DNA from: Cristatella mucedo
Lineage: Eukaryota; Bryozoa; Phylactolaemata; Cristatellidae
Reading direction: 5' to 3'
DNA length: 64,000 nt
Assembly: GCA_009760855.2 (NCBI GenBank)
Contig: WPIO01000005.1
Span: 13,072,001-13,136,000, forward strand
Below the pieces are notes generated by a model that saw only the letters and a list, made by a program, of their open reading frames with translations, did not search any database and was not told the origin of the DNA. Shown piece by piece: positions 23,313-54,845 of the stretch; the first letter of the stretch is position 1, and each line of letters begins with the position of its first letter. Made by a program: the position numbers and the translations under genes.

Positions 23313-23776
23313 TTAAAGCTCATTGAGACAGGCCTCGAGCGTGGCTATTGCATCTTGTCCGTTAGCTTGGACAGTTAGCACCATCGTTTCGTAATGTGAG
23401 GCGATGGGTGAGATCTCGGACGGCCGTTCTCGGCAGTTCGGACACTGCGATCTGTGGCCGGTCAATACGGCTCGGTGCACGCAGGGCGGCAGCTGTGTGG
23501 CCGACATCGGCAGGGCGTTGAGCTGTGCAGCGAGCGGCTGGCGAGTTGCCCGTACAAGCCGCACACATGCAGTCGAATCGAAAAACCTCTTTTAGCAAGG
23601 TTCTCCTTTCTTGTCTGGCCCGTAGTCGTCGAATGTCTGCTCACCAGTCGACGTGGGACGCAAGCTCAGGACCACCATTTTGGTGCTGTGGTAGTAGTCT
23701 CTGCTAATGCCACGGGCGCAAGAATGGTTGAAAAAACTCACGCTAGGATATGGGGCGCTGGCAATTCGCACCGACT
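23313..23776 (-). pseudogene. SMYD4: SMYD4-like retrocopy, C-terminal (SET) half
   Basis: Minus-strand frames read YPSVSFFNHSCARGISRDY, the SET-domain core with the NHSC motif that binds S-adenosylmethionine and the substrate lysine. Next come LRPTSTGEQTFDDYGP, then in a shifted frame LLKEVFRFDCMCAACTG, the post-SET cysteine cluster. A second frame gives QCPNCRERP and a C-terminal DAIATLEACLNEL, then a stop. This is the order of the C-terminal half of SMYD4, a TPR-MYND-SET lysine methyltransferase. No intron separates the parts, but frameshifts and a small deletion break it, so it looks like a processed pseudogene. It begins at a LINE-A tail (23,776-23,822). Its missing N-terminal half is on the opposite strand at about 51,800-53,200. 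Confidence 0.75.
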
Positions 23777-23822
23777 TATAATAATATTGCACTTGATAAA
23801 GCGCCCTCAGAGAACTTAATCT

Positions 23823-25541
23823 TAAGCTCCTTACCTGATGATCCTTGTGATGATCTAGCCGATCGCTTCTCTCGATTCTTTGTGCAGAAGATAGACAAGA
23901 TCAGGGAATCCATCCCTGCGATGACAACCTTCCCACTAGAATGCTGTTCCTCGGTTCCTGGCTGCGCCTCAATGTCTGCATTTAAACAGGTCACTAGTGA
24001 TCTAGTCCTAAAGCTCGTATCTCAATCAAAGAAGACAACAAGTCCACTGGACCCTATTCCCACTGTCCTGCTCCTACGTTGCATTGATCTGCTGCTGCCA
24101 TGCATAACCAACATCATTTAATATGTCATTAGCCTCAGGTCAGGTCCCAGCACCTTTCAAAAAAGCTGTAGTCAGGCCACTTCTCAAGAAAGCAACACTA
24201 GACCAAGAGAGCTTAAGCAACTACCGCCCAGTCTCCCTTCTACCATTCCTATCAAAGACACTGGAACGGGTCGTGGCAGACCAGCTGAACTCGTATATCG
24301 AAACCTCACACCTTGCTAGTAAGTTCCAGTCTGGCTTTAGAGCTAATCACTCCACAGAGTCAGCATTGCTTCGGGTATACAACGACCTACTTAGGAATGC
24401 AGACATGGGTAGAGTGTCTCTTCTTGTTTTGCTCGATCTTTCGGCAGCTTTTGATACCATCGATCACAAAGTACTTCTAGAGCGCCTCTCATCTCGCCTG
24501 GGCATCACTGGCACTGCTCTGCAGTGGTTCAGGTCCTATCTCAGTGGGAGACTCCAGAGTATTGACGTGAATGGACAAAGATCATCTGAAGTACCTCTAA
24601 AATATGGAATACCTCAGGGCTCTGTGCTAGGTACGGTTCTTTTCACCGTTTATACTCTCCCGCTTGCTAATGTGATTGCCAAGCACAATCTAGGCTTTCA
24701 CTTCTATGCGGATGACACTCAGTTGTACCTTTGCTTTGATCCCTCCCAGCCTTCGAGCACCTCAAATTCTCTAAACTCACTTGCTACATGCATTGATGAT
24801 ATCCGATCATGGATGGCAGCAAATTTTCTAAAACTAAACGATGATAAAACTAACTTACTAGTTATGGGCAAACCTAGTGTTATTCAGAAATTGGAAAGGC
24901 TGACTTTCAAAATTGGCTCTGCCAGCATATCTCCAGTTGAATCAGCTCGAAATCTAGGTGTCATATTCCAAAGCGACCTCTCGTTAGACGACCACACCAG
25001 CTCCACGGTCAAATCAGCCTATTTTCAGCTTCATAACATTGCTAAAATTAGAGCTTGCTTAGATAAGGATACCACGTCCAAGCTGGTCCATGCATTCGTG
25101 ACATCTCTTCTCGACTTCTGCAACTCACTGCTTACTGGCCTACCAGCATGTGCGATCAGGCGATTGCAGCTGGTGCAAAACTCTGCAGCTAGGCTTGTCT
25201 GTCGTGAGCCTCGCGGTTGCCAGGTTACTCCACTTCTCGACGACCTGCACTGGCTACCAGTCAAGCAATGGATTGACTTCAACGTCTTGTCGCTCACTTT
25301 TAGGTCCCTTCATTCTATGGCTCCAGCCTATCTCTCCGACATACTCCCCCATCAGGCCAAGCATCGTACCACCCACTTTTCGGAATCCAACAGTCTAGAA
25401 ATACCTCGTACAAACCTCAAATTCTTTGGAGACCGTGCATTTAGTTCGTATGCTCCCAAAGCCTGGAACTCCCTCCCGACCTGCGTCAGAACATCCCCTG
25501 ACCTGACCACATTTAAAAGGAACTTAAAAACACCTATTTAG
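23823..25541 (+). pseudogene. LINE-A copy A2 reverse transcriptase, two frameshifts
   Basis: Two frames cover the protein. The first ends at a TAA (24,119-24,121) caused by one extra T relative to copy A1. The second, 24,123-25,541, carries [18 protein letters not shown], an intact PQGSVLG and an intact [10 protein letters not shown] catalytic box. A 2-bp deletion near 25,530 ends the protein early, removing the [11 protein letters not shown] tail seen in the other copies. Catalytic motifs are better preserved than in A1, so this copy is a good guide to the active sequence family, though it cannot itself make a complete protein. Confidence 0.88.
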
Positions 25542-25731
25542 GACAGCATTTAGTGGGTCCCTATGATTCGTCCATCACGTGCTTATGGGTTTTGACACTA
25601 TGCATGCTGCCACTAACCACATTTGCATGCTGACCCAGTGCATGTAACCCCTAACCATGTTATTCATTTTGTTTGTTTTTCATGCATGATTTTACTTACT
25701 ATTCTGTTGCGTATCACTTTGCAGCAAATGT

Positions 25732-25771
25732 AAAGCGCCTAGAAAGAGATTAAGTTCTCTGAGGGCGCTTT
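25732..25771 (+). other. LINE-A 3' stem-loop
   Basis: AAAGCGCC pairs with GGCGCTTT, and within it AGAGA pairs with TCTCT around TTAAGT. The same structure ends every LINE-A copy and, in shortened form, every SINE-A. In L2/CR1-type elements such 3' structures are thought to be bound by the reverse transcriptase. That role is inferred here. Confidence 0.8.
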
Positions 25772-25806
25772 ATCAAGTGCAATATTATTATTATTATTAT
25801 TATTAT

Positions 25807-26297
25807 TAATGTAGATCTTTAGATCGGCATTTCGAACGCTGTTAACTAGCTGCTTTAGTAACTGCTCGCATGTCTGTGGAGCTGCCGCCACGAGGTATGG
25901 CGGATGTGAGTAGAGAATGCTGGGAGTGAAAAGAAGAGGAAAAAAGGGGAGCGCGTCAGTCAGTCAGAGTAGAGCTACGGGAGAGAATGCAAAGGGGACG
26001 AATATTGAAGCCCCGATCGCCCTGATAGCCAGTCGACCGACGCCGACTGAGCGGCCCAGAGCCAGCGGCCAGATGCCAGCCAGAGTAACGAAAGTCACGC
26101 TCGCGCTCTCACGCACTACCGAACCGAGCCCTCAATATGCACGTAAGTGCGTGCACCAGGCGCGAGCGCACGCTCCGGATCCGTATGCTCGCACGCTTCG
26201 GATGACGTGATGGCAAGCCCGAGCGTTCGACTGCACGGCGTGCCGTCGCACCAGCCGAGCCTTGTCTACACTGGTAGCCGCGGGTAAAAAATAAAAT
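25807..26297. other. Intergenic, nothing recognised
   Basis: No gene or repeat family is identified. Composition is moderately GC-rich. Confidence 0.4.
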
Positions 26298-26460
26298 CAT
26301 AGCTGATTAAAGAGCCTCTTTTTGTATAGCGATAGAAGAGCCTTTACGGCTATCACCATCGCTTGCAGTGGCGATAAAGGATCGCCCACCGAAGGAATTG
26401 AACCCGCGACCTCGGGACCGAGGTCATGAAAGCAACCGCCTTTCCTAGTGTGTCATCACG
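26298..26460 (-). mobile_element. SINE-B copy 6
   Basis: The copy is nearly full length. It has the tail AGCTGATTAAAGAGCC, the body GATAGCCGTAAAGGCTC on the minus strand, and a head with AGGTCGCGGGTTCAATTCC. Confidence 0.85.
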
Positions 26461-26587
26461 GTATCGGATGAAGGCCATCATAACGCGACTCGAACGGGCA
26501 GGTACGAAATTTCCTAACGACCTCTAAACCAGCGAGAATATCTTAAATTCGAAGCGATGCTTGACAGGGAGCCAGTAAAGCGCAGCT

Positions 26588-26668
26588 AGAAGTGGTGTCA
26601 TGTGGCAGCAAAGCTGCTGACGATGGACTTGAGGGGCAGCAGATTTGTACGCCTGCTGCAGACGAGAA
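26588..26668 (+). repeat. 81-bp direct repeat, left copy
   Basis: The copy starts AGAAGTGGTGTCATGTGGCA and ends CTGCTGCAGACGAG. It matches 27,148-27,228 at about 88 percent by eye (10 differences). Confidence 0.85.
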
Positions 26669-27146
26669 GCGAGCTGCGTACAGCGCCGAGAGCATCGGCG
26701 AGCTCAAACAGGCCTGGCAGCTGATCTCGAAGAGCAGCGCAACGCGGCGCACTAAGGCCAACCTGAGCCGAAGCCTCGTGCCGCACTTGCCGTGGAGCGG
26801 AGCGCGCTCAGGTGAGGGGCGCTGGCGGCGGCGGCAGCCTGCCGGCGTGGCGTCAGTGCTCCATGAGCAAGTGTCCGCGACAGAGCGACGACCCGTGCCG
26901 CGAGCCGAGCCCAGCGCTCACTCTCGGCTCGCCGCTTTCGTGCCGTCCGAGTTGCGAAATCTCATCTTCATCTGAAAGTGGTTGCAGCTCAATCTGGACG
27001 AGAATCCGATCAGCTTCGACTGCCACGCCTACTGATTCCGAACCGACCTGCTCGGACGCTCTGCCCCCGGCGCTGACGTCGACGACTGGCTACGTCGACA
27101 CGTGGAAGTGCACGTCGCCGCCGGAAGTTCGAGGCGCGAGCTTGTC
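26666..27146 (+). pseudogene. Toll: Toll-like receptor fragment (third paralogue, broken)
   Basis: The left part reads AAYSAESIGELKQ and TRRTKANLSRSLV, parallel to VYSVESISELDD and NTRTKIDLRRNRV at the end of the first Toll gene 1 exon. It stops at an intact-looking donor, GCGCTCAG|GTGAGG (26,811/26,812). After about 125 bp of intron-like DNA the right part reads SELRNLIFI, a stop, KWLQLNLDENPISFDCHAY, a stop, then FRTDLL. This parallels AEMRNLEFVSKWFELDLEENP and CDCHAFRFRRDL. Two in-frame TGA codons, a Cys-to-Phe change in the LRRCT and loss of the acceptor AG make it a pseudogene. Because the intron is retained, it was copied at the DNA level, not from mRNA. It covers only about 480 bp. Confidence 0.85.
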
Positions 27147-27147
27147 G

Positions 27148-27228
27148 AGAAGTGGTGTGATGTGGCAGCTAAGCTGCTGACAATGGGCTTAAGGAGCAGC
27201 AGATTTGTGTACCTGCTGCAGACGAGGA
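27148..27228 (+). repeat. 81-bp direct repeat, right copy
   Basis: The partner of 26,588-26,668, it begins at the very end of Toll homology (AGAAGTGGTGTGATGTGGCA). Confidence 0.85.
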
Positions 27229-27550
27229 GTGTTGTGTAGTATGGGATGCCAGGAGCTGGAATCAAAACAGTGGTTGTAATGTAGATTCAGTGTCAAGCAC
27301 CCCTAAACTATTTTGGCGGTCGTAATCTCGGCTAAGCAGGCCCTAATTTTGGCAATAATCCTCATCTGATAATGGCCAGACTTGACAGTGGAGGTTATGT
27401 TCCCATCCCTTGACGAGTCGTTTTGGAATAGCACGCCAAAGTAGCTGAGGGTGACATAAAGCTTGCTCATACATTTTAAGTTGGTCTTATCATCCTTAAG
27501 CTCAAGAAGCTGCAAGCCACTCAAGTACAAATGTCGTTGATGAAGGTTAC

Positions 27551-28030
27551 AATAAAGTCAGATTTAGCGTGGCTTGGGTGGGTCTGTTAGCTGATTCTGC
27601 TTTACAACCAGTTCGTCTATGCTACACCGAGCGATTTCACCTTGACCCGCAGTGCAGCACTGGCTGACTCAAGAAAACACGTCGATTTCTTGAGCCGCGG
27701 ACCACTGCTGCTTGGCTGAATATCGCGTTAGCTATGCCAATTGGCCTCTGCCACGGCTACATCAGCTACGGCTGATCGGGGCACGCTACTTAAGAGAAAC
27801 CGATAGCATTAAGATTCCTATGAATGATGGCTTGCCCAGTCAATAGTACTCATTTAGGATTACTGTTTAGTAATCATTTAGGATTCCTATATACTGGACC
27901 TGATTGTCGCCTATTCTTTGTCTGCATTTGCCACGGTCCACGTTCTATTTGTCGGCTGCGTTATAAAACATAGTAATTTCCCAGCAGTTAACTCGTGAAT
28001 GACTTCACGGAAGCCCTTCGTGTCACAGGT
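27551..28030. other. Intergenic, nothing recognised
   Basis: A 20-bp-scale local duplication (TTTAGGATTACT / TTTAGGATTCCT) occurs near 27,855-27,885. Otherwise no features are seen. Confidence 0.35.
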
Positions 28031-28480
28031 TCTAAGGATAGGTTGATCTGGGTGCTATCGGTATAGAAATAAAAGAAAGGATTGTGTTTGGCGATGACAT
28101 ACCAAAGGGAGAATACAGATTGTGAAAATTAGGGGCCTAAGACCAAACCCGGGGAACCCTTAATTTTAAGAACCCCGGGATGACCGTAGCAGTTAAAAAA
28201 GACTCCGTCTGTCACGAGATGGGGCGTAATTCACTTTAGCATCATCGTGATGCCTAAGCGCGTTGAAAGGCGCTCGAGAAGGATTTGGTAGTATACTCTG
28301 TCAAGCGGTGCTGGAGATCTAAAAGAACCAGCAGCGAGGACCAGCAGCGAGGACCGATACCCCGATCGAAATCTGTCAAGAGGTTGCTGGAAACCCGAGG
28401 CTGAGCTACTAATGAAAGACGCACGATTGTTGTTAGATATGTAACCGAGTTCAATGGGCCAGCGGCTAACTCCCACTATG
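28031..28480 (-). mobile_element. Old LINE RT fragment (LINE-A/C-like)
   Basis: Minus-strand homology to the RT region is visible through blocks matching GCATAGAAGTGAAAGCCTAG-like and GGCGCTCGAGAAGGAT-like segments of LINE-A. Readable peptide is limited (ILLERLSTRLGIT, parallel to [13 protein letters not shown]). It is badly decayed. Confidence 0.65.
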
Positions 28481-29830
28481 GCTCGCTACTATCTATGTCC
28501 GTTCTGGGTCATTACGCCGGGCCCTTCGGTAACAGTGGTTCACGCGTGATCAATCGGGTACACAACACTTTATATAATACACACGCATGCGCTATACAAA
28601 GGAGGGCACTAAAAAAAGCCTACAGAGGAAGTTCCCATACAAGGTAAACTACAGGGGCACGGGATGACGCCGCAAGCGCGAACAAACGTGTTAGTGCTCA
28701 GTCGGCTTCCACAGTCGCACCGTCGCAGGACTCCGTCTCACCAGTACAAGCATACGCCGCCCAAGACCCGGCTAGCTGATTACTCTGTGGTAGACGAAGC
28801 GGACGTCCAACACCGTCGAGAGCTTCCGCCGAAAGAGAGCGAGCACGTTGTACCCAGTTCCCGTCCTCGGAACTCTGGGAGCTGACCCACAGGCTTTACC
28901 CTTCCGGGGCAAGGCGACGCCCAGCCCGACATATCGAATGTCAGTGGGTCCGCCTACTCTAGGGTACATATATAATGCATGGAAAAGATATCGACCCTTT
29001 GCTATCCGCCAATAGAGAAGGGGTCAGTGATCAAGTTAACGACTTCACACACGACAATGTCAGCTCAGCCCAAGCGGCACGGAGAGACGGTCTTGTGTGT
29101 ACCACGACAAGATGAAGGTCGGGCAGGACTGACCTTTACTGCACTGATTTCACAGATGGTCTGGCAGTTACGTTGGGTAGCCCGCAATGGCTAGATGGTT
29201 TCTGTGGATTTCCGTGGAAGAGCCGAGAGAAACTCGTGAAAGTCAGAAATAAAGCTGAGATTGGTACCTCTTGGACGACAAATTACTGCGACCATTCACA
29301 CTTCTGGATAGAGAACTAGATTCTAAGATAGTTTAGCAGTAGCTCAGAAAGTTTTGAAATTGAAAGAGGTGCGGTTGTCAACGGCATTTCCGCCGCCATG
29401 TTTCAATTAGTTCGGATAATGAAAAAGGCGAAAATCTCAAGGGTGTTAGTGGTGGTAAACTTGCATTTCGTTGACTTCAGCCAAGTTGTCTCAGTTACAG
29501 TGAAAATATCAAAAGCGTCGTCAAGTGTCAGGCTTCAAAGAGCTCATGCTTTCTGGCACGGCCAGACATTCGAGGGAGTTTGAAGTGGTCGCCGAGGTCA
29601 GCTATTGCTTTTGGCTAAACTAGTTTAGAGAAGTTAACAGCAGATCAAAGGGAACACCACGGTTAGTGGGCAACCAAATTCGCTGCCATTCAAACCGGAG
29701 AATTCGTTTTGCGATTAGTAGCAGACTATGCAGATGATGACTGTACGCCGACAGCGTCTTCTATTACCCTAGCGCGTTCTACGGGCGATACCCAACTCGA
29801 GATAAGCGTGACGGTAACACATGCAGTGGC
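28481..29830. other. Intergenic, nothing firm
   Basis: A short plus-strand YADDD-like peptide at about 29,730 recalls an RT catalytic box. The surrounding frame does not support an RT, and I do not call it. Confidence 0.35.
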
Positions 29831-29839
29831 ATATGCTAC

Positions 29840-30570
29840 CTCAATCAGCACGAGGCGACAAGCCCAGATTGTGCTTTGTGATTGCACCTGCAGGAAGGGA
29901 GAATACATTGTGAAAAGAAGTGCACTAAGTTACACATTCCTTCGGTACGCCAATGTTTGCGCCCCTACAGAAAGCAAAGCACGTGCAAATGTGAGTTGCA
30001 TATACAATCTGTTGCAAGTGAGCTTACTAAGCGTCCTTGAAATCAAGCGAATGCTCCGGCGGCCATTGAAAGATACAAAAGTCGAGATGTGATGTGGCAA
30101 ATGCGTGGAACAGCTTGAATATGGTGTCCTTGTCTGAGCAGGCTCGAATTTTCGCAACGTTACGTAGCCGAAAGTACACGGAGATGACCATGAAGCCGAT
30201 GCGGTCGTCTAGCGAAAAGTCCTTTTCGAACCGGACACGCAGATTTCGTGTAGACACGACACGAGACATGCTTGCCAAGCTCATTTCGAGGACAGGATTC
30301 TCCGATGTCTGAGTAACACTAGGGAATCAGGTCTTGGATAGCCGCGAGCGTATGCTACTGCTGCTGCTGCCTGGCTGCTGTGCGGCGGCCTTGCTTTTAG
30401 TGAGTCTTTGTGATTCATCCTTAGTGTGCGTATGCATGCTTACACGGTGTGCGCTGCTTTCGGATGTTACCACTAATAATTTCTTAAGGCTTCCTGTGCA
30501 GCATTTGTAAAGTGCCTAGAAAGAGATTCAGTTCTCTGAGGGCGCTATACAACTCTTTTATTATAATTAT
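29840..30570. mobile_element. Old LINE-A pieces, two orientations
   Basis: Minus-strand RT and C-terminal coding remnants lie at about 29,845-29,950 and 30,020-30,300 (AKIRACSDKDTIFKLFHAFAT, shown in part: KDTIFKLFHAFAT). A plus-strand 3' UTR with the stem-loop lies at about 30,385-30,570 (GTGCCTAGAAAGAGATTCAG, GAGGGCGCTATACAAC). Confidence 0.7.
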
Positions 30571-32269
30571 GTTTCTTCTGTGCTGTGTACTTGTTTGCAC
30601 AGTCAGATTGGTATGGGTCGTCTATGGTTTGTATTCGATTCTACAAGGCTGCTGCTGGCCCGGCCTCGGTGAGGAGTACTGCAGTTCATCGGGCCAAAAT
30701 ACCCTCTCACAGCCTTGGTCTGGAGCAGATAACGGAACGACCACTGATCAGCATTAGGCTTCCTCATCTGACTGACTGGTCATTCTGTGGTTTTTGTTTT
30801 ATTCTTTTATTATTCAATTTTATTGACTACTTTTATTTGAATTACTACCGAGTAGATGAGCAAAACCGTAGCAGGAATAGACTATTTCATCCATAAATCC
30901 AGCTCCACAACGTATTCTTATCGAAGCCAAAAAGGCAATTACAAATTCCATGACTAATTTATCGTTTGACTTCGCTAAAGTAGCACCACGGCCGTACTAG
31001 TGCAACGCACTAGTACATTCGAGCGCCAAGCTAACGCTCGCTGCTATAAAATGCAAATTAGCATAAGGCTACCATAAAGAAGCTCCGGAGCTACAGCCAC
31101 GTGACTACTGTGCAGCACGGTGGAATACATTTTGCTCTAACGAAGGCAAACCGTGACGCCGTTCGTGGGAAACACTCCCAAAATCAGCCACTGTGTAAAT
31201 ACTATGCATAAGCATAGTCAATACATGCCATTTCTTCCCATTCTATATCGAGGCATAATCGCTGTCTAATAATAAGCTACTGGTCCGCAGCCTCAAAATG
31301 TCTATTTGCAACCTCATACGCAGTTCGGCAACGAGCAACCTGCGTAGAGCACCTGCAGCCCCAGTACAAACTCGCTCCCAATCACCGATAAACGGCGATA
31401 ATGCACACCTCGTGCGCCTTCGCAAGTCAAGCGGATATATTTTTCGTCAAAACTGTATACAGTGTTTTGGCATTATCAGTTTCAGTAGCCGTTTGCCTCC
31501 GTAACCCCGCAGTTAGTTCGATGACTTCCGCCGCAGCGGCCGTGGCGAGAGTTGAAAGGTTGTCTTAACGGACCATGCCTTTCCTCTATCTATGTGCAGA
31601 TAGGACCGATGCCGAAGCAGCGGTGGCGGCTGCACTCGCCTGGAGAAGCGCAGAACTTGGCGCTGGCTCTGCGCCAGCGATGCTGTCTCTGAAAGAGCGG
31701 ATGAGGATTGGGCGAAGCTCTTGGCGAACGAGAGCATCCTCGAGCCGTCAATCACTCCAACGCTATTAATGCTATTTGCAGGCGACGCGGGCTCAGAAAC
31801 AGCCGCCACGTTACAGTAAATAGTTTGGTCATAAAAATACAATGCAAATTGTTATATCCGTTCAGGCTGCGACGGAGCGCGAGTAAATTTTTTCTCTTCG
31901 AAAACCGCTGAACCGCGAACAGCTTTCGCCGCGCAGCTGGTTTTATTCGCAGCGCATCGAATATATTCGCTCGCGGGTCTCTCTTGAACAGCCAGCGGGC
32001 ACGCGAGAGCGGCCCGTGGCTCGAGAGCAAGGAGCGACCGGTCGTCAGCTGCCGCTCTGCCAGAGCGAGGGAGGTATCGCTTGAGTTCAAGGACGAAACC
32101 TCTCGATCAGACTGAGCCGGGGAGAGCGACAACTGGCAGACGGCAGAGAATCGCCACGGGCGCTGGCGGCTCCGGAAGCGCGGCGCTCGGAACCTGCAGC
32201 CTGCGACCTGCGTGCCGCCTGGCGGCGCCGAGCGAGCTCAGCGAAGCCAGCGACTGAAGAGATTCGGGC
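30571..32269. other. Intergenic, one possible terminal exon
   Basis: No gene is firmly recognised. A CpG-rich patch lies at 31,900-32,270. The possible exon at 31,6xx-31,819 is listed separately. Confidence 0.35.
31628..31819 (+). CDS. Possible 3' terminal exon, unknown protein (low confidence)
   Basis: One plus-strand frame ends SERADEDWAKLLANESILEP, continues SITPTLLMLFAGDAG and stops at TAA (31,817-31,819). It has the look of a protein C-terminus and lies downstream of AG acceptors (for example GAAGCAG at about 31,621). I do not recognise the protein. Overlapping frames are also open, so this could be chance. Confidence 0.22.
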   Translation, partial: GCTRLEKRRTWRWLCASDAVSERADEDWAKLLANESILEPSITPTLLMLFAGDAGSETAATLQ

Positions 32270-32375
32270 TGGGCAGAGCGTGCGCGAGTGCGCTATATAA
32301 TGCTCTCCTGCGTATCACCCACGTGGTCTTTGTGGCTTTGTGGAGTTACGGACGGAGACGCATCTGCACGGCGTA
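32270..32375 (+). mobile_element. LINE-B 3' tail
   Basis: The tail matches the LINE-B end: TGCGCTATATAATGCTCTCC, the hairpin CCACGTGGTCTTTGTGGCTT, then GTTACGGACGGAGACGCAT. Confidence 0.7.
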
Positions 32376-32403
32376 GCGCAAGCGCGCCTTGAAGACGAGG
32401 CTG

Positions 32404-32489
32404 CTCCTGGTCGCTCAGTCACCGGCGGCAGATCAAGGCTGTTGGTAGAGTTTCGGCCGGATTTACTGCCGTATTCGCGATGCATTGCT
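32404..32489 (+). repeat. Unclassified repeat R3, copy 1
   Basis: An 86-bp segment starting CTCCTGGTCGCTCAGTCACC matches 47,769-47,855 at roughly 80 percent by eye. It has no A or B box. In this copy it follows a LINE-B tail by about 30 bp. Confidence 0.65.
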
Positions 32490-32496
32490 TAAACTG

Positions 32497-32650
32497 CGTT
32501 TCATAGCACTTACATCTGTACATGAGCACTGTAGTCGACAAAAGCAGCCTAGAAAGAGATTGAGTTCTCTGGGCCGCTACGTAAAGTGTATTAGTAGCAG
32601 TTGCAGTAGCAGTACCAGTACCAGTAGTAGTAGTACTAGTACTACTTTTA
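32497..32650 (+). mobile_element. LINE-A 3' tail with (AGT)n end
   Basis: CAGCCTAGAAAGAGATTGAG and TTCTCTGGGCCGCT mark the terminal stem-loop. It is followed by a decayed AGT/ACT trinucleotide repeat where other copies have (ATT)n. Confidence 0.7.
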
Positions 32651-32929
32651 AGGCTAGATCCTCATTATACTGACAGAAACGATCATTCAACCATTCACTT
32701 CGCCTTGGAAGTATGTTGCCGTACTCTATTCGAGGATTATCATTTCTGCTGGAGCAACTGACACCTCTCGGCAAGCATACTTCGTTTGTGGCATGGTTTC
32801 TGGCCTTCTCCGAGGGGCCTTCGGAGAGCGAGACTACCAGATGTGGACAAAACGACTTCTTATTGACGGTTATTCCCTGGCTCGTCATCATCCACTGCTG
32901 GTCGACCGTGTCCTTGGAGTTCCACACGT

Positions 32930-33535
32930 GTGGTTACACATTAAAGTACATTGCGAAATTCAATATATCATACCAATTGGAGCTTCGAGCCACCGATTCT
33001 TAGTCAATTGGAAACCGATTGCGATCAAAGCCGGCCCATTGCCCTCGATTGCCAAGCATTGTCCAATGTTGAAGGCTCACGTGGATTGACAGTATTCGCA
33101 ATGTGCAATTAACATTAAGTGGCATGATAATTGGAGCTTCGAACAGCCAATCTCTAGTCAATTTGAAATGGATTGGGGTAGAAGCTGGACCATTGCCGTA
33201 GATTGCCGCGCACTGTCCTAGTTCGAGATTGTTTAAAAGGATGGGGCTACACTTATTAATGCAACGAACTATAATAACCAAAAAAGTATAATCTTGTCCC
33301 ACCAGCTTTGTGTCTAATCTTACCAGACCATCATATATTGGCTTTTGTCCTGGCCCAATGCCATCGATTGAAAGCCCACAATTGATGCAAATTATGCCCA
33401 CACACAGTTAGATGTAACGTGGAATGCGTGTTCAGTTTCGTGAAGCCAATCGTCGATTTTCCACGGATTGCGGGATTTAGCCCTACCATCGCTGTCGATT
33501 GCAGTAGATTGCTGACAGTTATCTAGCAAATCAGC
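32930..33535 (+). repeat. Short array of the ATTGC satellite
   Basis: About four monomers carry CCATTGCC-TCGATTGCC-type cores at about 33,038, 33,190, 33,356 and 33,486, with TTGGAGCTTCGA-type spacer words. The monomer is the same family as the 43-46 kb element. A LINE-A/LINE-B chimera begins at its right end. Confidence 0.7.
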
Positions 33536-33539
33536 TTGA

Positions 33540-34188
33540 CAATGTCTACATTCAAGCAGGTCACTAGTGACATCGTCCTAAATTTCATATCCTAATCAAA
33601 GAAGACAACTAGCCGTTTGGACCCTATTCTCACTGTCCTGCTCCTACGTTACATTGATCTGCTGCTGCCATGCATAACTCACATCATTAATGTGTCATTA
33701 GCCTCATGTCAATTCCCAGCACCTTTCAAAAAAGCTATAGTCAGGTCACTTCTCAAGAAAGCAACGCAAGACCAAGAGAACTTTAGCAACTACCGCCCAG
33801 TCTCTTTTCTACCATTCACATCAAAGACACTGGGACGAGTCGTGGCAGACCAGCTGAACTCATATCTTGAAACTTCAAACCTTGCTAGTAAGTTCCAGTC
33901 TGTCTTTAGAGCTTATCACTCCACAGAATCAGCATTGCTTAGGGTACACAACGACCTACTTAGGAATGCAGACATGGATAGAGTATCTCTGATCGTTTTG
34001 CCCAATCTTTCGGCAGCTTTTGATACTATCGATCCCCAAGTCCTTCTTGAGCCCGAAGTCTGTTGGCTACCGAATGCGTACCGAAAGCCGCTTAGGCTGT
34101 GAGTGACTATACAAAACTGTCCTGCGTAACACCCACATGGTCTTTATGACTTTGTGGGATTACAGACGGAGATACATACATACAATAC
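33540..34188 (+). mobile_element. Chimeric retrocopy: LINE-A body with LINE-B tail
   Basis: From 33,540 to about 34,050 this is LINE-A RT coding sequence ([34 protein letters not shown]). At about 34,051 it switches without spacer to LINE-B 3' sequence (CGAAGTCTGTTGGCTACCGA through the CCCACATGGTCTTTATGACT hairpin) and ends GGAGATACATACATACAATA. The LINE-A portion has no stem-loop of its own. Confidence 0.8.
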
Positions 34189-34215
34189 CTATAGCCTAAC
34201 TCCAAGAGTGTCAAT

Positions 34216-34354
<139 letters not shown>

Positions 34355-34404
34355 CTAAGTTAGTGACTCACTGTTATAGGTACCACAGGCAGTAACGCCA
34401 GCCA

Positions 34405-35440: not shown

Positions 35441-35441
35441 C

Positions 35442-37090: not shown

Positions 37091-37095
37091 TATAT

Positions 37096-40357: not shown

Positions 40358-40362
40358 GAAGA

Positions 40363-45203: not shown

Positions 45204-45552
45204 GTAATGTAATGTAATGTATCTCCGTCAGTAACTCCACAAAGTCATAAAGACCATGTGGGTGTTACGCAGGAGAGTTTTGTATAGCGCACTCACAGCC
45301 TAAGCGGCTTTCGGTACGCATTCGGTAGCCAATAGACTTCGTCTCACGCAACAAAGAGAAAGTGGGAAGCATAGCAGAGTTAGGAGAGCAGTTGAGGTAG
45401 TGAGTAGCATAGAAGTAGCAGTTCAGGACCGCTGAAAAAGATGTGCCATAGTCGGCAGTTGGAGAGTAGATGTCGTTGCGTAAGAATTGTGGAAGCGAGT
45501 TCCTATTCCCATGAGCAATGTCAATTAGAGCGTCGAGATCGCGATTAGAGGA
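45204..45552 (-). mobile_element. LINE-B copy inserted in the ATTGC element
   Basis: The C-terminal coding part (NSLPQFLRNDIYSPTADYG) and 3' UTR run to the hairpin CCACATGGTCTTTATGACTT and the tail ACGGAGATACATTACATTAC on the minus strand. It matches 56,720-57,060 closely. ATTGC-type sequence resumes on its right side, so it inserted after the array existed. Confidence 0.85.
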
Positions 45553-46130
45553 TGATTTGCAGTGGAATACAGTGGATTTCGGTAGTTTTCCTGTCATTTC
45601 AGACGATTGCCGCCCATGCCACAGTGCGAGGATGCACAATTTTTTTAGTTTACGTAGTTGTGCACACAGCAATGGGGAACTTTAATATGCAATCAAAACT
45701 GGAGCTTAGCGCAATCTATTTCGATTTTGTGTGCCGTAGATTCGGTGGATGGAAGTGGATTGGGGCATTGGCCCGGGCTACTGCAGTCGACTGCAGCTCA
45801 TTGCACGAGAATGGTCGTGCCAATGCAAGTGAAATTCTTTCAGTGCAATTGTCGTAGAGTGTGTTGTCATATGCAATCAAAAAAGGAGCTTGTCTAACAG
45901 GATTTCTTTCCTGTCGCGGTGGATTGCGGCATTGGCCTGAGCCACTGCAATGTTATTTCAGTGAACCTCGTGAGAACGCATGAGCGGAATCGCGCGAGAT
46001 TTTCTGGGTACATTGTACGCGTAGCATAGTTTGATACATCAAACTTTTTGAAGCTGTGCGCAGCCGACTTGCGGCGGATTTGACGGGAACTAGAATGGAT
46101 TGCGGTGGATTGGGGTAATTCGTCTAACCC

Positions 46131-46708
46131 TACTGAGAGCCTGAGCCGGCTAGCCTGTTGGTTGCGTTGGTACATTTGCTGACTAGAAACATCGAATTTC
46201 CAGAAAGAGCCAGCTTAAGCTGCGGCTGTGGTAATGGCAGCGGAGCTCGGCCCTCGGAGAAGGTACGGCACCCTATCCGTATCCCACTAAGGGTACTCCT
46301 ACGAACCGTTCGTGGCTAGGTAGCTGGAAATTTTGACGTTTCAGCCGACGTTTCAGGCGACTTCTGCATTGACCTTTTCGTCCACAGACGTCCGTTCAGC
46401 GGCCCTTCGTGGACGCGTTGTCATAGTCGTTCGGCCGGACGGCCAGCCGAACATCTAGGACGCAGCTACAGGCCCGGATGTCCTCGCCTAGTACTGCTGT
46501 GGAAATTTCCCTTTCAGCCGGATGCTCGGACTAAAGGCCAACCTTACTGCGAGAGCCCCTCGGACAACCCGTCGTCAGGTTAGGTAGCGAGACTGAGCGA
46601 CAAGTCTCCTGACTCCAGCACCAAGCACTTTCTTCACAAAAGCCACGCTCGTCAAGCCCAGTCTACGCTTGTCTAGACGGCCGCCGCTGGCATCCAGAGG
46701 AATCCATC

Positions 46709-46711
<3 letters not shown>
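46131..46711. other. Intergenic, nothing recognised
   Basis: CGTT/GACG-rich words repeat loosely at 46,300-46,450. No gene or repeat family is identified. Confidence 0.35.

Positions 46712-46797
<86 letters not shown>
46712..46797 (+). repeat. (CT)n microsatellite with C9 interruption
   Basis: Two CT runs flank a run of nine or ten C residues near 46,767. Confidence 0.97.
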
Positions 46798-47147
46798 CCG
46801 TGTATGTGTCTCCCCCTCATGTGTCTCCTCAGGCAGTCGTTTTATTTCCTGCACGAGTTGTTTTTAACCGTCAAGCCACTGTTCGTTTCGAAACCGCTCG
46901 GCAACTAACGGCAGTTTGGATAGACAGATGCCCCGGTAAACGCCACCCATGCATGGACTTGCGGCTCGCCTGCTAAGTCATCGGCCGAGAGCCATTGTCA
47001 GTCAACCCCAACTGCTCGACAGCGGGAGCGATGGACAGCTTAGGACGACGGATACATCAAAGGGGCTCCGCTCATTGTTCTAGGGCGCGGAGTCACAGTT
47101 CTCTTGCGAAAGAATTAGTAGGACGAATGTTTTTGAGTGAGTTTGTG

Positions 47148-47201
47148 TCTGTCTGTTTGTCTGGTCGTCTGTCTGTCTGTCTGTCTGTCTGCCTGCCTGC
47201 C

Positions 47202-47234
<33 letters not shown>

Positions 47235-47290
47235 TGTGTGTGTGTGTGTGTGTGTTTGTGTGTGCATATGTGTGTGTGTGTTTGTGTGCA
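47148..47290 (+). repeat. Compound (CTGT)n / (CTGC)n / (GT)n microsatellite
   Basis: The tetranucleotide block at 47,148-47,233 is followed by GT-rich sequence to about 47,290. Peptide frames across it are artefacts. Confidence 0.95.
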
Positions 47291-47516
47291 TTGGTGTGTG
47301 TTTGCATGTTTTGGATGTGTCGTGTGTGGCTGTTTGTGGCTGTACGTGTCTGAATGCATAGGCAGATGGTACGATAGCAAGCGTTTATTGTATTATCGCA
47401 TGCAATTTTGTGCAGAGCAACGGAGATGGATACTCTTCTCCCCTCACCTCGATGGCATTTGGCGGTTGCCAAGGCTCCCCCGCCCCGTCTACCTAGCCAT
47501 GCAGATTATGTAAAAA

Positions 47517-47661
47517 AGTTTAATTCACTTTTATAGAGACCTAAGAGAGAAACTCTATTCTGGTACTTCACATAAGCCACTGGTCGAGCCCACGGTCATC
47601 AAATATGTTCACCTTGACCTTGGTTCAGGCCCGTTAACCACTGGGTTTAACCGGTGTGGCA
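47517..47661 (-). mobile_element. SINE-A copy 6 (diverged)
   Basis: The tail (GAAGTACCAGAATAGAGTTT on the minus strand), a shortened B-box region (CGTGGGCTCGACCAG) and the head are recognisable with many substitutions. The hairpin is weakened. Confidence 0.75.
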
Positions 47662-47768
47662 GATGGCCCTCATCTGGACCATGTGCCCTCACGACGGCTG
47701 ACAACAGATTGCTCGATCATGCAATTTAAATACTTGGTGTACAGCAAACCTTCCTCGAAGCAGAGGCC

Positions 47769-47855
47769 TCTCCTGGTCGCCCAGTCATCTGCGGCAGACC
47801 GAGGCTACCAGTAGAGCTTCGGCCGGATTCACTGCTGCATTCAAGATGTATTGCT
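47769..47855 (+). repeat. Unclassified repeat R3, copy 2
   Basis: The partner of 32,404-32,489, it starts CTCCTGGTCGCCCAGTCATC and includes CTTCGGCCGGATTCACTGCT. Here no LINE-B tail precedes it. Confidence 0.65.
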
Positions 47856-47870
47856 GACTGTCCTAACTGC

Positions 47871-49434
47871 CCACACAAAATGTCGGTCAGATACAGATTG
47901 ATTTGGAAAGCATTACTAGAGGGCCCCCATAAAATTAGTGAAACTTCAATGCGAGGGAATTAGGTACGGAAATATCGTATTGACTAAAGTGCAGCTGAGA
48001 TGTGTACGATTGACGAATCAATGAGTCGCGTATGAGACAAATATCCACTGGGCATCCTTTGAACAATATTTGCAATACCATGCTTATGCCTTCAATAAGC
48101 ATTAATTTTCATTTGAGATCAGACCTTTTGAATGCGTTTTGAATTATAGTGCGGTGCATTCCTTACATTGTGATCCCACTGTTGGAGGGTGAGAAGGGCA
48201 TGGTGAGGTCCGGTTATTCCTCCAGCTAGAAGTCTTTTAACATTTGGTGGTTACTGTGACGAGCAGCACCAGGCCAACAACAAGCCGAGGTTTCGCTCTG
48301 AAGTTGCCAGAGATGATCGAAGTAATGATGATCTTATTTAAAGAGCCCTCGTTTGTTCAGTCTATGTACTAATTAATTAACTAAACTAATGGAGAATGTG
48401 CACCCAGTTGCCTTCTTGATATCGGATATCTCATATGATTTACGGAAAACTGGAAACGAGCATGTCCGCACTTATAACAATCTGAGATCCCTCTATTGGC
48501 GCGGCTTGCTGCCTGAACCCGTTTCAGCACTAAATAAATCGCACCTCGGTAAGACTCGAATCGCACTGAAACAACACTACACCCACGTACATTTGTTGAG
48601 TTTAGGTTCTTTTACGATCGCCTTAGATGCTACTAGGTCATGCGATTGTATTCAAAAGCATCCTTGATCGCCTACTTCTAGCACCACTGCCGGCAGCGGA
48701 ACGGTGTCCGGCAGTCGTGCCAGGATTAGGTGACCTGTACATATGGCACCCGTGGGAAAGGCCACTCAGCGTCACACCACCGGGTCGCGTTTTTATGCAA
48801 AGCGTATCCAGCTGTGTTTATTGTTCCTGCCCTTGGTGTGGTCTAATGAAGAACAGGCAAAAATCGAAAAGAATCCTTGCTTTTGAGACTCTACGTCGAC
48901 AACCATGAACTCAGTCCTCATAGGGTACCCTAAATCTAGCCCCCTATAATGGACGGTGCACCGCAGTAACTGGGAATTCTGCACTATTGATGACGGCAGT
49001 ACGTGTGAAGCGTTCGTAATAAACGTGCCTTCCTTAGTTTGGTAGTCTACCCGTCACTGCATCACTAGCAATGGGAAGCCTGTGAAGCCCTGTGCATTGA
49101 CGACGGGCAGTCAATGGCGCGATAACCTTGAGAGCCGGCGAGTGACTGACTGCAGTGCGATGCTTTCTGCTTTCCTTCTATCACAACTCCTCGACCGCCT
49201 ACCAGCCGTCTAGCTATCAATTACTCTGTTCAGTGTCTGCCTGCCTTTTCGCCGGTGCAGGAATCACTCGGTACAAGCTTTCACGAACGCATTTCAAAAC
49301 TCGTCACTCGTTATCTCTACTTGAAACAAACATCTGATGTGGCTGCATGCCGTCTGAGATCTAATCTGATAGCAGGCCGCCGTCTGAGTTCTTGACGCTA
49401 TGGAAACGCACGGGGACTTGATATATACGTCCAT
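47871..49434. other. Intergenic, nothing recognised
   Basis: Several short open frames occur on both strands (for example 48,389-48,667 plus). None has recognisable motifs. Confidence 0.35.
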
Positions 49435-49435
49435 T

Positions 49436-50385
49436 AATAATAATAATACACTTGATAAAGTGCCCTCAGATAACTCAATCTCTTTCTGGGCGCTTTAAAT
49501 TTGCTGCGAAGGGAAACGCGATTGAATGGTGAGTAATATCATGCTTGATAAACAACATTAATAACATGGTTAGGGGTGGCATGCACAGGGTCAGCATGCA
49601 AGTGTGGTTAGTGGCAGCATGCAACAGTGCCAGCACGCATTAGCACATTGGACGAATCGCAGAGACCCAATAAATGCAGTCCTAAATAGGTGTGTTTTTA
49701 AGGTCTTTTTAAATGCAGTCAAGTCAAGGGATGTTGTGACGCAAGTCGGGATTGAGTTCCAGGCTTTGGAAGCATACGAACTAAATGCACGGTCTCCAAG
49801 GAATTTGAGGATTGTACGAGGTACTTTTAAACTGTTAGATTCCGAAAAGTGGGTGGTATGATGCTTTGACTGGGGGGAGTAGATCTGATAGGTAGGCTGG
49901 AGCCAAAGAATGGAGTAACTTAAAAGTGAGCGACAAAACCTTGAAGTCGATCAGTTGCTTGACAGGTAGCCAGTGCAGGTCGGCGAGAAGTAGTGTGATG
50001 TGGTGTGATGTGGCTACTGCGACGCTCACGACAGACTAGCCTAGCTACAGAGTTTTGCACCAGCTGTAAGCGCCTGATTGCACATGCCGGTAGGCCAGCA
50101 AGCAGTGAGTCACAGAAGTTAAGTCGGGATGTCACAAATGCATGGACCAACTTGAATGTCGTATCTTTATCTAAACAAGCCCGAATTTTAGCAATTTTAT
50201 GTAGCTGAAAGTAGGCAAACTTGATTGTGGAGCTGATGTGGCAGTCTAACGAAAGGTCACTTTGGAACATGACACCTAGATTTCCTGCAGATAGTTGAGG
50301 GAATTCGAGGTGCTCGAAGGCTGGGAGGGATCAAAGGAAAGGTACAACTGAGTGTCATCCGCATAAAAGTTAAAGCCTAGTCAGC
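49436..50385 (-). mobile_element. LINE-A copy A7 (truncated, internal deletion)
   Basis: The copy runs from its (ATT)n tail, stem-loop and 3' UTR through the C-terminal coding region ([40 protein letters not shown]) on the minus strand. A deletion near 50,285 then joins it to the catalytic-core region (GTGTCATCCGCATAAAAGTT). Confidence 0.85.
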
Positions 50386-51720
50386 CATCGATTCCACATG
50401 CGTTTCCTTAATTTAGGCCGACTCCCCCTGCCCGCTGCCCCCCCCCCCCGCAGGCGCAAAGCAGTAGAATTCGTTAGGCGTCTTCTTGGAAGGAGGCTGT
50501 CTTTTCTAACCAGTCCTATCTCAGCAGTACGTGCGCTCCAGAATTGCTGCGGGAGTTCTGAAGTGTAACTTTGGGTGAGATGCAACTTTGGCTCAATGCA
50601 TAGAAAGCGAAGAGGATAAGAGTTTCAGCTTCCGTCCTGCAGACGATGGTAAAATGCGAGTGCTAGCTCATTCACAGCAGTGGCTGTCAACATTCTTCTT
50701 CAACGTATACGCATCCGTCCACCAGTCCAGATCGTAAAAACTATCGTTAGCTCTACGAGCACCGGCTTTATGCTCGTGCACCTCGGATGAGGCAAGTGTG
50801 CTTATTACTACCACGTGGTCTCCGTGGCTCCAGCTAGTGTCTTGCATTAATCATGGCCGTGACGGACATGAGCTTAGGAACAGACCGCGCCTCGAACTGA
50901 GAGGTACCAGGCTAACCGAGAACCGCAAGAACAGGGCTTGATAAACGTGTCCTAGGCGATTTGACTTTAAAGTCGTATCGCTAATGCACACTCAAAATGA
51001 GTCAACAAAAACAGCTCTCTCATGTTGCCAGAGCTTTCCGGCACGGATAAGACTGATTCATACGCATACTTCATATGGACTCGTTTAAATGCGTTTCGTG
51101 AGGAGCAATTTGATTTGACGTGTAAACGCTTACCAGTTGAGTATTCTTGGACAGTTATCAAGATAGGCAAGCTATTTTTGGCTGCTCTGGACAGTTATCA
51201 ACTAGTCTTTATATCTTTCCTTCATAAAAAAGCGCTAGCAAACTGCATTGTAATTATCTACATAAGAGTCGAGGAATATTTTTAGTTTTCCTATAGTGTT
51301 ATACAAATATTAGTATTGTTATTCTTATTAATCCCTTTGTCCTCTCTTGTGGGGAGGACAGCCTAATCAACTGGCAGCGGTAAGACGTTTCCCCTTCACA
51401 GTATCACCGTCATCACAGCATGTGCTTTCAGCTACACCCTTAAGTTTGTTGCAATGACAGTACTAGACGGTGAATTATTTCAGAATGGAATACTTCAGAT
51501 CTACGCTCGTACTGCTGCGACACCAGATCACCCCTCCCCACGGGGCTCCGGTATCCCATCAGCCTTGTTGGTGTGCTTTAGCAAACGACATCAGCCTAGC
51601 AGCTCGGGACTGAAACAACAATCGTTCTTCTTTATGGGTGCTGAAGTCGTCAGCTTGCCAGGCAATCAGCGTTTATAATTGCTGGACAAGGTTCGGAGCA
51701 AATCAGCCATAACCAGATGC
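50386..51720. other. Intergenic, nothing recognised
   Basis: A C-run is at 50,438-50,449. A small minus-strand frame at 50,370-50,585 is not recognised. Confidence 0.35.
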
Positions 51721-51799
51721 TAGGCGATGTCTGCTTTTTTTGAGGAGGCACCTGCCAATTCGGATCAGTCACAGTGGACATGTTCAGCGCACCTGCATT

Positions 51800-53200
51800 G
51801 CAACATCAGCCGTACAGGAGACCGCTTTCGGTGATGGCTTCTATCAGCTTAAGTCGAAGCTTTTGGCTAGAATGAATCACCCGGACTTCGACAATACCAT
51901 CTTTATAGCTTTTCACCGAGCACGAAATAACAAGGAGCGAATCTCTTTCCTGCTTGGGTTGTCGATATTACGGCCCTTGCTTAAGCTAACGACTGATTTT
52001 CCGAAAACAGGGCTGCAGAAATCCGGTCAGGAATCCGGCCACGCTTTACGCGAATATGGGAACGTGCTCTTCAAGAAAAGGAGATTCCGCGAGGCTTTGG
52101 TTGCGTACAGCAGCATACTTCGCTGTCGCTTGGAGTCGGATATCGGCGATGAAGTTGGTCAATCTTTGGCCCTAAGCTATTCGAACAGGCCGGCGGTTTG
52201 GTACCGTCTCCGTGAGTTTGAATGCTGCCTGACCGACATCGATGCTGCCCTAACGGCGGGTATCATGCAAACAAGCTGCACGACCGACGACTGAGCCTGG
52301 AAGACCATCTCGCTGCTGCGGAAGCCACGAGGGCAGCTGAAAAGTCGGTCACTGCGGCCGAGCTGAGTGAGAAGGAAAGAGGGGAAGTGCTTCAAGTCCT
52401 GCGGCAGCCCGCTGATGCTTTCGTCTTGGCTTCGCCAACAACTGCTTGCACTGCGACAGTATCTGCTGACGTGACCAAATCAACTTGCAGAGATGCCACG
52501 GCGGCCGCTCCCATGCTCTCTCAGACTGCCGTCGCAGACTATCCGGCGTTGTCGTCAGCTGTCGGCATCACTAGGATTGACCGTTACAATATGCACGTAG
52601 CGGCCAAAAAGTCTTTGCGGTTGAACATGAGTTTGCAGCCGACCCAGTGAGGCGTGCATGCCGACGCACTGCTATGGCTGCCTGTCGAGGTTGAAGATCT
52701 TTATCCATGCAGGAGATGCATCGTGACGCTCTATTGCAGCCAGCGACGCGAGCAGGTCAGCTGGTCGGGCTACCACCGCTACAAGTGTCACAGCATGGCC
52801 GCATCGATTAACTTTGCCAACTGGCACGGTCACGTGGCCTTGCGAGCAATGCTGTATGCCGGTTTGACCCTCTACACCCAGCACGCTAGCTCCGACGGCT
52901 CCAGTAGTCACAAAGACTTGCGACACGATGCATACATCGGCTGCCCAAGATGTCCTCCGGACTACTCTAGAGTGCAGGGCCTGCCTCGGCAGACGCTTAG
53001 AAAACTTCGATTACCCGTCCAATGCTTCGGTACTCGGTGCTGGCCGCGTACCTGGCGCTATGCGTCTGTCCCACGGAGGCAGTGGCAATCAGACCCAACT
53101 GTAGGGCAGACTATCCCAATGGATTACAGTGCGCCATTGCAGCTGTCACTTTCCATCACCTGCTTAGTGGTCTTTTCAAAAAAATTGCACACACTCACTG
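51800..53200 (+). pseudogene. SMYD4: SMYD4-like retrocopy, N-terminal (TPR-MYND) half
   Basis: SMYD4 is a TPR-MYND-SET protein methyltransferase. The first frame reads FDNTIFIAFHRARNNKERIS, then a TPR region (GNVLFKKRRFREALVAYSS, ALSYSNRPAVWYRLREFECC, LTDIDAALTAG). A 1-base deletion near 52,260 shifts it to YHANKLHDRRLSLEDHLAAA. A TGA at 52,648-52,650 interrupts the frame. It then resumes as YPCRRCIVTLYCSQRREQVS and GYHRYKCHSM, the MYND zinc finger, in which one zinc-binding Cys (after YCS) reads Arg. Further decayed sequence, including HHLLSG-type remnants, follows to about 53,200. There is no intron across regions that should span several exons, so a processed copy is likely. LINE-A begins at about 53,280. 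The SET half is on the other strand at 23.3-23.8 kb. Confidence 0.8.
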
Positions 53201-53249
53201 AGCTAAGGTGTATCGATAAAGTTTCGAACAACAGCAATACATTGATTGG

Positions 53250-54605
53250 ATGCTATCAAAAGATCTTATCAAAGACTCTTGGATCTTATCAAAGACTCTG
53301 GAACGGGTCGTGGCAGACCAGCTGAACTCCTATATCGAAACCTCACACCTTGCTAGTAAGTTCCAGTCTGGCTTTAGAGCTAATCACTCCACAGAGTCAG
53401 CATTGCTTCGGGTATACAACGACCTACTTAGGAATGCAGACATGGGTAGAGTGTCTCTTCTTGTTTTGCTCGATCTTTCGGCAGCTTTTGATACCATCGA
53501 TCACAAAGTACTTCTAGAGCACCTCTCATCTCGCCTGGGCATCACTGGCACTGCTCTGCAGTGGTTCAGGTCCTATCTCAGTGGGAGACTCCAGAGTGTT
53601 GACGTGAATGGACAAAGATCATATGAAGTACCTCTAAAATATGGAGTACCTCAGGGCTTAGTGCTAGGTCCGGTTCTTTTCACGGTTTATACTCTGCCTC
53701 TTGCTGATCTGATTGCCAAGCACAATCTGGGCTTTCATTTCTATGCGGATGACACTCAGTTGTACCTTTGCTTTGATCCCTCCCAGCCTTCGAGCACCTC
53801 AAATTCTCTAAACTCACTAGCTGCATGCATTGATGACATCCGCACATGGATGGCAGCAAATTTTCTAAAACTAAACGATGATAAAACTAACTTACTAGTT
53901 ATGGGCAAACCCAGTGTGATTCACAAATTGGAAAGGCTGACTTTCAAAATTGGCTCTGCCAGCATATCTCCAGTTGAGTCAGCTCAAAATCTAGGTGTCA
54001 TATTCCAAAGCGACCTCTCGTTAGACGACCACATCAGCTCCACAGTCAAATCTGCCTATTTTCAGCTTCATAACATTGCTAAAATTAGAGCTTGTTTAGA
54101 TAAGGATACCACGTCCAAGCTGGTCCATGCATTCGTGACATCTCGTCTCGACTTCTGCAACTCACTGCTTACTGGCCTACCAGCATGTGCGATCAGGCGA
54201 TTGCAGCTGGTGCAAAACTCTGCAGCTAGGCTTGTCTGTCGTGAGCGTCGCAGTAGCCACATTACTCCACTTCTCGCCGACCTGCACTGGCTACCAGTCA
54301 AGCAACGGATTGACTTCAAGGTTTTGTCGCTCACTTTTAGGTTCCTTCATTCTATGGCTCCAGCCTATCTTTCAGATATACTACCCCATCAGGCCAAGCA
54401 TCGTACCACTCGCTTTTCGGAATCCAACAGTCTGGAAATACCACGTACAAACCTTAAATCCTTTGGAGACCGTGCATTTAGCTCGTATGCTCCCAAAGCC
54501 TGGAACTTCCTCCCGACCTGCGTCAGAACATCCCCTGACCTGACCACATTTAAAAGAAACTTAAAAACACACCTATTTAGGACAGCATTTAGTGGGTCCC
54601 TGTGA
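53250..54605 (+). pseudogene. LINE-A copy A3 reverse transcriptase, N-terminally truncated
   Basis: The frame is unbroken for 451 codons and includes [20 protein letters not shown], the intact [13 protein letters not shown] catalytic box and the full C-terminus [11 protein letters not shown]. The first 15 or so residues are flanking sequence and not LINE protein. The RT fingers (NYRPVS), the linker and the endonuclease are missing, so it is not functional. It is the youngest-looking copy in the window by its open frame. Confidence 0.88.
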
Positions 54606-54845
54606 TTCTTCATTGATGTGCTTATGCGTGCTGACACTGTGCATGCTGCCACTAACCACATTTGCATGCTGACCCTGTGCATGTCACCCCTAACCATATT
54701 ATTTATTTTGTTTGTTTTTCAAGCATGATTTTACTTACTATTCTATTGCATATCACTTTGCAGCAAATGTAAAGCGCCTAGAAAGAGATTAAGTTCTCTG
54801 AGGGCGCTTTATCAAGTGCAATATTATTATTATGATTATTATTAT
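53270..54845 (+). mobile_element. LINE-A copy A3 (5'-truncated)
   Basis: The copy starts inside the RT domain at about 53,285 and runs through the 3' UTR, stem-loop (54,771-54,810) and (ATT)n. A 19-bp word, GATCTTATCAAAGACTCTT, is duplicated at its 5' junction (about 53,262 and 53,282). Confidence 0.92.

Follow-up and report, generated by a model that had tools for sequence, protein, structure and literature searches.

Two oppositely oriented halves of a probable single SMYD4-like pseudogene of the bryozoan Cristatella mucedo, with LINE-A at both broken ends

Inversions with transposable elements at their breaks are a known type of rearrangement. In human/chimpanzee comparisons, 49 of 252 inversions have oppositely oriented L1 or Alu elements at both breaks, and 12 of these 49 also lost sequence (PMC2603318). 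In human tumours L1 can bridge rearranged ends, and a head-to-head fold-back is described (PMC7058536). Lineage-specific expansions of SMYD4-class genes in animals are likewise described (PMC4521844; SmydA, PMC5459927). Here we describe a SMYD4-like pseudogene of Cristatella mucedo that lies in two complementary, oppositely oriented parts about 28 kb apart, with sequence of LINE-A, a long interspersed element (LINE), at both broken ends. Both parts lie in a stretch of 64,000 nucleotides (contig C550, positions 13,072,001-13,136,000; hereafter the window), and the genome searched comprises 572 Mb in 688 contigs. It is likely that a decaying member of an intronless gene family received a LINE-A insertion in its own sense and that, with this insertion or later, a segment of about 31 kb was inverted, with breaks in LINE-A.

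Proteins of the SMYD4 class show, in order, an N-terminal TPR region, a MYND finger, a split SET domain with an NHSC core, and post-SET cysteines. The same order is visible in the alignment of the SMYD4-like family of this genome, and the pieces of the two joined halves that match the family hidden Markov model (HMM) follow it. This profile of 725 positions is based on 16 long single-frame genes that occur in this genome; it was run with filters off against every stop-to-stop fragment of 12 or more residues in the six frames of the window. The half on the plus strand (the N-half; Table 1) covers profile positions 9 to about 518 in the ordered pieces 9-158 (from 51,845), 162-280, 293-313, 313-378, 436-476 and 497 to about 518, and the half on the minus strand (the C-half) covers about 529 to 713 in the ordered pieces ~529-581, 588-618, 619-682 (weak, 9.2 bits) and 685-713. 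The halves are thus complementary with zero overlap, in line with the initial annotation of this DNA, which had named little or no overlap; that annotation also placed both halves correctly, although it gave the SET half too short, as that half reaches 23,217. Both halves score far better than chance. The E-values are 3.8e-30, 3.6e-20, 6.5e-17, 2.9e-4 and 0.0045 for the N-half and 4.5e-10, 7.3e-7, 8.5e-4 and 0.052 for the C-half, and no fragment of the window beyond both halves has E ≤3 in this search. The last N-half piece (first part 53,149-53,211) is weak, at -0.1 bits, and was accepted on its position; about 125 bp of the N-half, opposite profile 379-435, fail to align, and about 10 variable linker residues lie in the alignment between the end of the N-half and the start of the C-half. 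In Pfam the halves score 21.4 bits for zf-MYND (cut-off 22.7; E 2.7e-4) and 22.0 bits for SET (cut-off 22.4), and TPR reaches only E 0.1. Because the Pfam matches lie only near the cut-offs, the identification as SMYD4-like rests on the family profile.

Table 1. Coordinates of the split pseudogene, the LINE-A copies and the related genes (window positions unless a contig is given)
Feature	Position	Strand	Evidence
N-half, SMYD4-like pseudogene (TPR region, MYND finger, SET start)	51,845-53,211	+	family HMM, alignment, Pfam
C-half, SMYD4-like pseudogene (SET end, post-SET cysteines, C-terminal region)	23,217-23,771	-	family HMM, alignment, Pfam
LINE-A 3' tail, 47 bp, directly upstream (gene sense) of C-half	23,776-23,822	-	sequence, 32-base exact match
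LINE-A copy A2, head to head with 47-bp tail	23,823-25,810	+	alignment, junction read
Junction of N-half and LINE-A: unalignable linker, then ~20-bp tandem repeat of LINE start	53,212-53,283	+	sequence read
LINE-A copy A3, 5'-truncated	53,284-54,845	+	alignment, open frame
LINE-A copy A1, longest in window	14,863-17,042	-	645-codon open frame, alignments
Putative inverted segment, ~31 kb; ends uncertain by a LINE length at each end	23,823-54,797		opposite strands of halves
SMYD4-like single-frame genes, 15	C486:1,578,849-1,911,426 (333 kb)	both	translation of loci
SMYD4-like single-frame gene, 1	C113:223,498-225,582		translation of locus
Intron-bearing SMYD4 gene (loci L074-L076)	C110:4,710,085-4,731,611		exon pieces over ~21 kb

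LINE-A sequence of opposite orientation lies at the two breaks. The N-half runs into the plus-strand copy A3 and the C-half begins right after the 47-bp LINE-A 3' tail on its own strand, both as initially annotated; these are the ends expected of one sense insertion in one gene, and A3 and the 47-bp tail may well be the two ends of a single insertion. The reverse-transcriptase frame of A3 is open for 461 codons (53,220-54,605, counted from 53,220), and A3 is 94.3% identical to the copy at 14,863 and 95.2% to the copy at 23,825, while A2 is 95.8% identical to the copy at 14,863-16,847 over 1,987 bp. The window holds six tails of the LINE-A group (at most 8 edits), and three of them are of the same young variant, exact over 32 bases, at 23,780 (-), 25,758 (+) and 54,797 (+). 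These three sit at the break ends, and the remaining three differ by 2, 4 and 6 bases. In 256 kb of other fetched loci, some of them overlapping, two of 29 LINE-A tails are exact to the young variant. Its 35-base form, of which the 47-bp stub matches the first 34 bases, has 4,776 exact occurrences in the searched genome. The probability that a LINE-A tail lies by chance within 80 bp of both ends is 3e-4 for any variant (at the 256-kb rate) and falls to about 2e-6 if the frequency of the 35-base young tail is used, both figures being too small because even spacing is assumed and LINE-A is clustered. In fact, the 3' flank carries another LINE-A sequence in 8 of 20 young copies (loci L054-L073), which were the first 20 genome places listed (18 on C1 and 2 on C2) and not a random sample; the eight, counted by copy, are L055, L058, L061, L062, L065, L066 (by eye from the flank), L070 and L073, where locus L069 overlaps L070 and its first tail belongs to the L070 copy.

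The gene copy is decayed. The reading frame of the joined halves is broken by at least seven frameshifts and one stop, of which at least five frameshifts fall in the N-half (5 disablements in 1,367 bp) and at least two frameshifts and the in-frame stop fall in the C-half (3 disablements in 555 bp); one MYND cysteine has changed to R, and the family motif NHSCDPN reads NHSCARG. There are 8 disablements, tallied by hand from frame changes, in the 1,922 bp of the pseudogene, whereas the frames of A2 and A3, about 3.0 kb together, contain 1 (binomial P = 0.003). The gene was therefore probably dead before the LINE arrived; the copy was probably already decaying ahead of the insertion, which is probably not what killed it.

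To place the pseudogene, its relatives in the genome were considered. A SET search found many long single-frame genes on contig C486, and the family comprises 15 genes there and one on C113 (loci L011-L019, L026, L027 and L045-L049), with open frames of 637-790 codons; three of the 16 (L018, L045 and L049) have one stop each inside their match to L026. The 33 genome matches of the whole L026 protein are the 16 genes, three pieces of the pseudogene locus, 11 short matches that all lie within the C486 cluster stretch, two matches on C110 and a weak one on C669 (1,549,399-1,549,548; E 0.005, 45% over residues 540-588, in a 359-codon frame). On C110 the matches fall in a SMYD4 gene with introns, possibly the ancestral form of the intronless family, with clear exon pieces at profile 275-314, 303-350, 485-555 and 584-613 and weak ones at 562-581 (E 0.7) and 642-710 (E 0.015); its TPR exons gave no significant match in a 3-kb upstream stretch. 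As an intron-bearing SMYD4 is present in the genome, the halves might be taken for exons of one or two such genes, yet this is hardly conceivable: the split point falls within one C110 exon, at 485-555, and the halves leave no room for an intron where the C110 gene has one, firmly so after 314 and 555 and, on the weak exon matches, after 581 and 613. No intron remnants are present, and the exon explanation was rejected.

These comparisons also bear on how the copy arose. The initial annotation had proposed a LINE-A insertion in the middle of an intronless retrocopy, of which the split gene, the sense-oriented LINE-A ends and the missing introns stand, whereas the word retrocopy is unsupported. 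The joined halves lack introns at four C110 positions, while the members of the family with which they group are themselves single-frame; as the genes of the family have no introns, copying through DNA would give an identical sequence and fits equally well. The likeness to a processed pseudogene or retrogene lies in the absence of introns at the comparable C110 positions, and the differences are that the nearest family is intronless and that no poly-A was noticed on reading the 3' flank of the C-half. A recent copy from the C486 cluster was also considered and found unsupported: DNA searches with each half, in which very common words were skipped, matched only their own locus.

Trees and protein searches bear on the origin of the two halves. 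The C-half groups with L026 (97/98), as do the joined halves (97/97, or 95/91 once the C110 gene is added), so that the joined sequence seems to belong to the intronless family and not to descend separately from the C110 gene, a placement of moderate weight given the long branches. The end branches of the halves are similar in length (1.57 for the N-half and 1.68 for the C-half). In protein searches of the genome the TPR part gave 17 matches (the pseudogene locus, 15 on C486 and 1 on C113) and the SET part 18 (the pseudogene locus, 16 on C486 and 1 on C113), and these searches together with that of the L026 protein found no further dispersed SMYD4-like piece beyond C486, C113, C110 and the weak C669 match. 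When ends are drawn uniformly at random, a gap of 0-15 positions appears in 2% of the simulated draws and an absolute gap of at most 15 in 4%. With few other pieces in the genome, abutting ends, similar branches and the placement of the C-half and the joined sequence, one gene is thus likelier than two as the source of both halves. Two separate SMYD4-like copies might instead have stood near each other in opposite directions and been independently truncated, with ends that fit by chance. Within the C486 cluster the family genes do lie in either orientation, and the nearest rows by identity differ, being L019 for the N-half and L026 for the C-half. Against this, the halves abut within about 10 residues without overlap, the C113 gene and the weak C669 match are the only other dispersed intronless pieces found, LINE-A stands at both ends in matching orientation, and the two halves have similar end branches and similar decay (5 disablements in 1,367 bp vs 3 in 555 bp). 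We therefore consider two copies improbable; nothing clearly points to different parents, although the N-half takes no firm place in its tree.

Since the halves lie on opposite strands, the rearrangement would be an inversion of about 31 kb, if one break is at 23,823 and the other within the A3 tail. A full-length intronless member of the SMYD4-like family would have arrived on this chromosome and decayed, and a young LINE-A would have inserted in the gene sense, in the variable linker that joins the N-terminal part (TPR/MYND) to the C-terminal part (SET end). Together with this insertion or later, a segment of about 31 kb with the N-half and most of the LINE would have inverted, both breaks being in LINE-A, so that the minus strand would now bear the C-half with its 47-bp LINE tail and the plus strand the N-half with A3. 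The rearrangement may well be a simple inversion that made use of LINE sequence, either by recombination across the tail, what remained of the left LINE being lost, or by joining coupled to the LINE insertion. The recombination between LINE-A copies proposed in the initial annotation agrees with the mutual inversion of the halves and the opposite LINE-A at the breaks, but with a 47-bp stub and no chimeric LINE it becomes one option of several.

Several observations weigh against the insertion and inversion just described. The left LINE is only 47 bp long and stands head to head with the inside of A2, and on reading the junction no full or chimeric LINE spans the left end. Searches with the halves and two flanks found no uninverted or empty site in the same genome; the two flank searches matched only their own locus, dispersed repeats and one local repeat. 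The best identity of the N-half is to L019 (38%, vs 34% to L026), and for both the N-half tree and the joined tree the program reports that long branches meet. Stubs shorter than 100 bp are common (12 of the 31 further tails that were measured, a count in which old copies can appear short), and LINE-A often lies beside LINE-A, so the left LINE cluster could partly consist of later insertions. Target-site duplications of LINE-A were not detected, the mean longest common flank word being 5.34 against 5.00 in control pairs (32 of 46 tails, including the four LINE-A ends of the window; the other 14 were excluded because the LINE match stops short of the tail or starts fewer than 25 bases from the sequence end), and the usual test of whether two LINE ends belong to one insertion is therefore unusable.

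The structure of the left joint bears on how such an inversion may have come about. Simple recombination between full-length LINEs is set back by this head-to-head joint, and no LINE-A match occurs in the 4 kb following A2; either the left LINE was lost (e.g. on the arrival of A2), or the homology lay in the tail only, or the joint arose while a LINE was inserting. A tentative explanation, which we would rate somewhat below even, is that the LINE in the gene underwent homologous recombination with an opposite LINE-A and that the left chimeric LINE was then mostly lost, for example through the A2 insertion. The tail matches A3 in inverted orientation without a difference in the 32 compared bases, LINE-A commonly adjoins LINE-A (8/20), and the human/chimpanzee inversions, some with sequence loss, offer a precedent (PMC2603318). 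A3 could be the right-hand chimeric LINE that LINE-LINE recombination predicts. Nevertheless, an extra deletion must be assumed, as only 47 bp of homology are left and the left end has no chimeric LINE, and the compared stretch of the tail bears no diagnostic bases, so chimerism is unreadable there.

The inversion may otherwise have been coupled to insertion, with LINE complementary DNAs (cDNAs) joining the breaks to give the head-to-head joint of tail and A2 and an A3 that bridges the N-half to the far flank. That joint itself, the three tails of one young variant at the break ends, the repeat-like slippage seen where the 5' end of A3 is joined and the L1-bridged rearrangements of human tumours (PMC7058536) are consistent with it; several simultaneous priming events would be needed, a plain nested insertion can yield a similar joint, and there are no visible target duplications to help, which makes this coupling fairly doubtful. 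Its strictest form, in which the inversion happened during LINE-A reverse transcription at two break sites, outward-facing cDNAs bridged the wrong ends, and the tail/A2 joint and A3 are one event, is unlikely; if true, it would be a germline, non-L1 counterpart of the L1-bridged rearrangements of tumours. It is quite improbable that the segment was inverted by a mistake of the assembly at LINE repeats. LINE-A is abundant, as the count of exact young tails indicates, and both ends lie in it, but the contig is 13.6 Mb long and the error would also have had to create the odd 47-bp head-to-head joint.

Other repeats occur in the window. A 79-bp direct repeat (26,588-26,666 and 27,148-27,226; 89% identical, 560 bp from start to start) flanks a stretch that resembles, by eye, part of a Toll receptor. 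Dispersed repeats lie at 26,287-26,461, with most listed copies 91-95% identical and some weaker, and at 55,456-55,950, with most listed copies 82-89% identical and some weaker. An inverted pair at 12,431-12,976 (+) and 58,938-59,494 (-), 78% identical over 566 aligned bases, has the appearance by eye of Toll-type intracellular domains.

Compared with known systems, the locus appears to be a tidy fossil of a known type of transposon-associated rearrangement and not a new mechanism. The SMYD4-like family resembles the SMYD4-class expansions described in PMC4521844 and PMC5459927 in being lineage-specific, and differs in that 16 long single-frame copies, 15 of them in 333 kb, occur in a genome with an intron-bearing SMYD4 elsewhere; this family is probably of more interest to researchers on chromatin enzymes than the broken copy. 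The L1-mediated rearrangements of tumours (PMC7058536) are similar in having a LINE between rearranged ends and head-to-head structures, whereas they are somatic and due to L1, and the present case is a germline fossil with another LINE in which the coupling is conjectural. The inversions mediated by L1 or Alu recombination (PMC2603318) are alike in the opposite elements at both breaks, the kilobase scale and the loss of sequence in some cases; here the LINE is a different one and has no detectable target duplications, and no chimeric LINE is seen at the left break. The order at the present locus is known from one genome. The split pseudogene marks both order and orientation, and a LINE-associated inversion is thereby indicated from a single genome alone.

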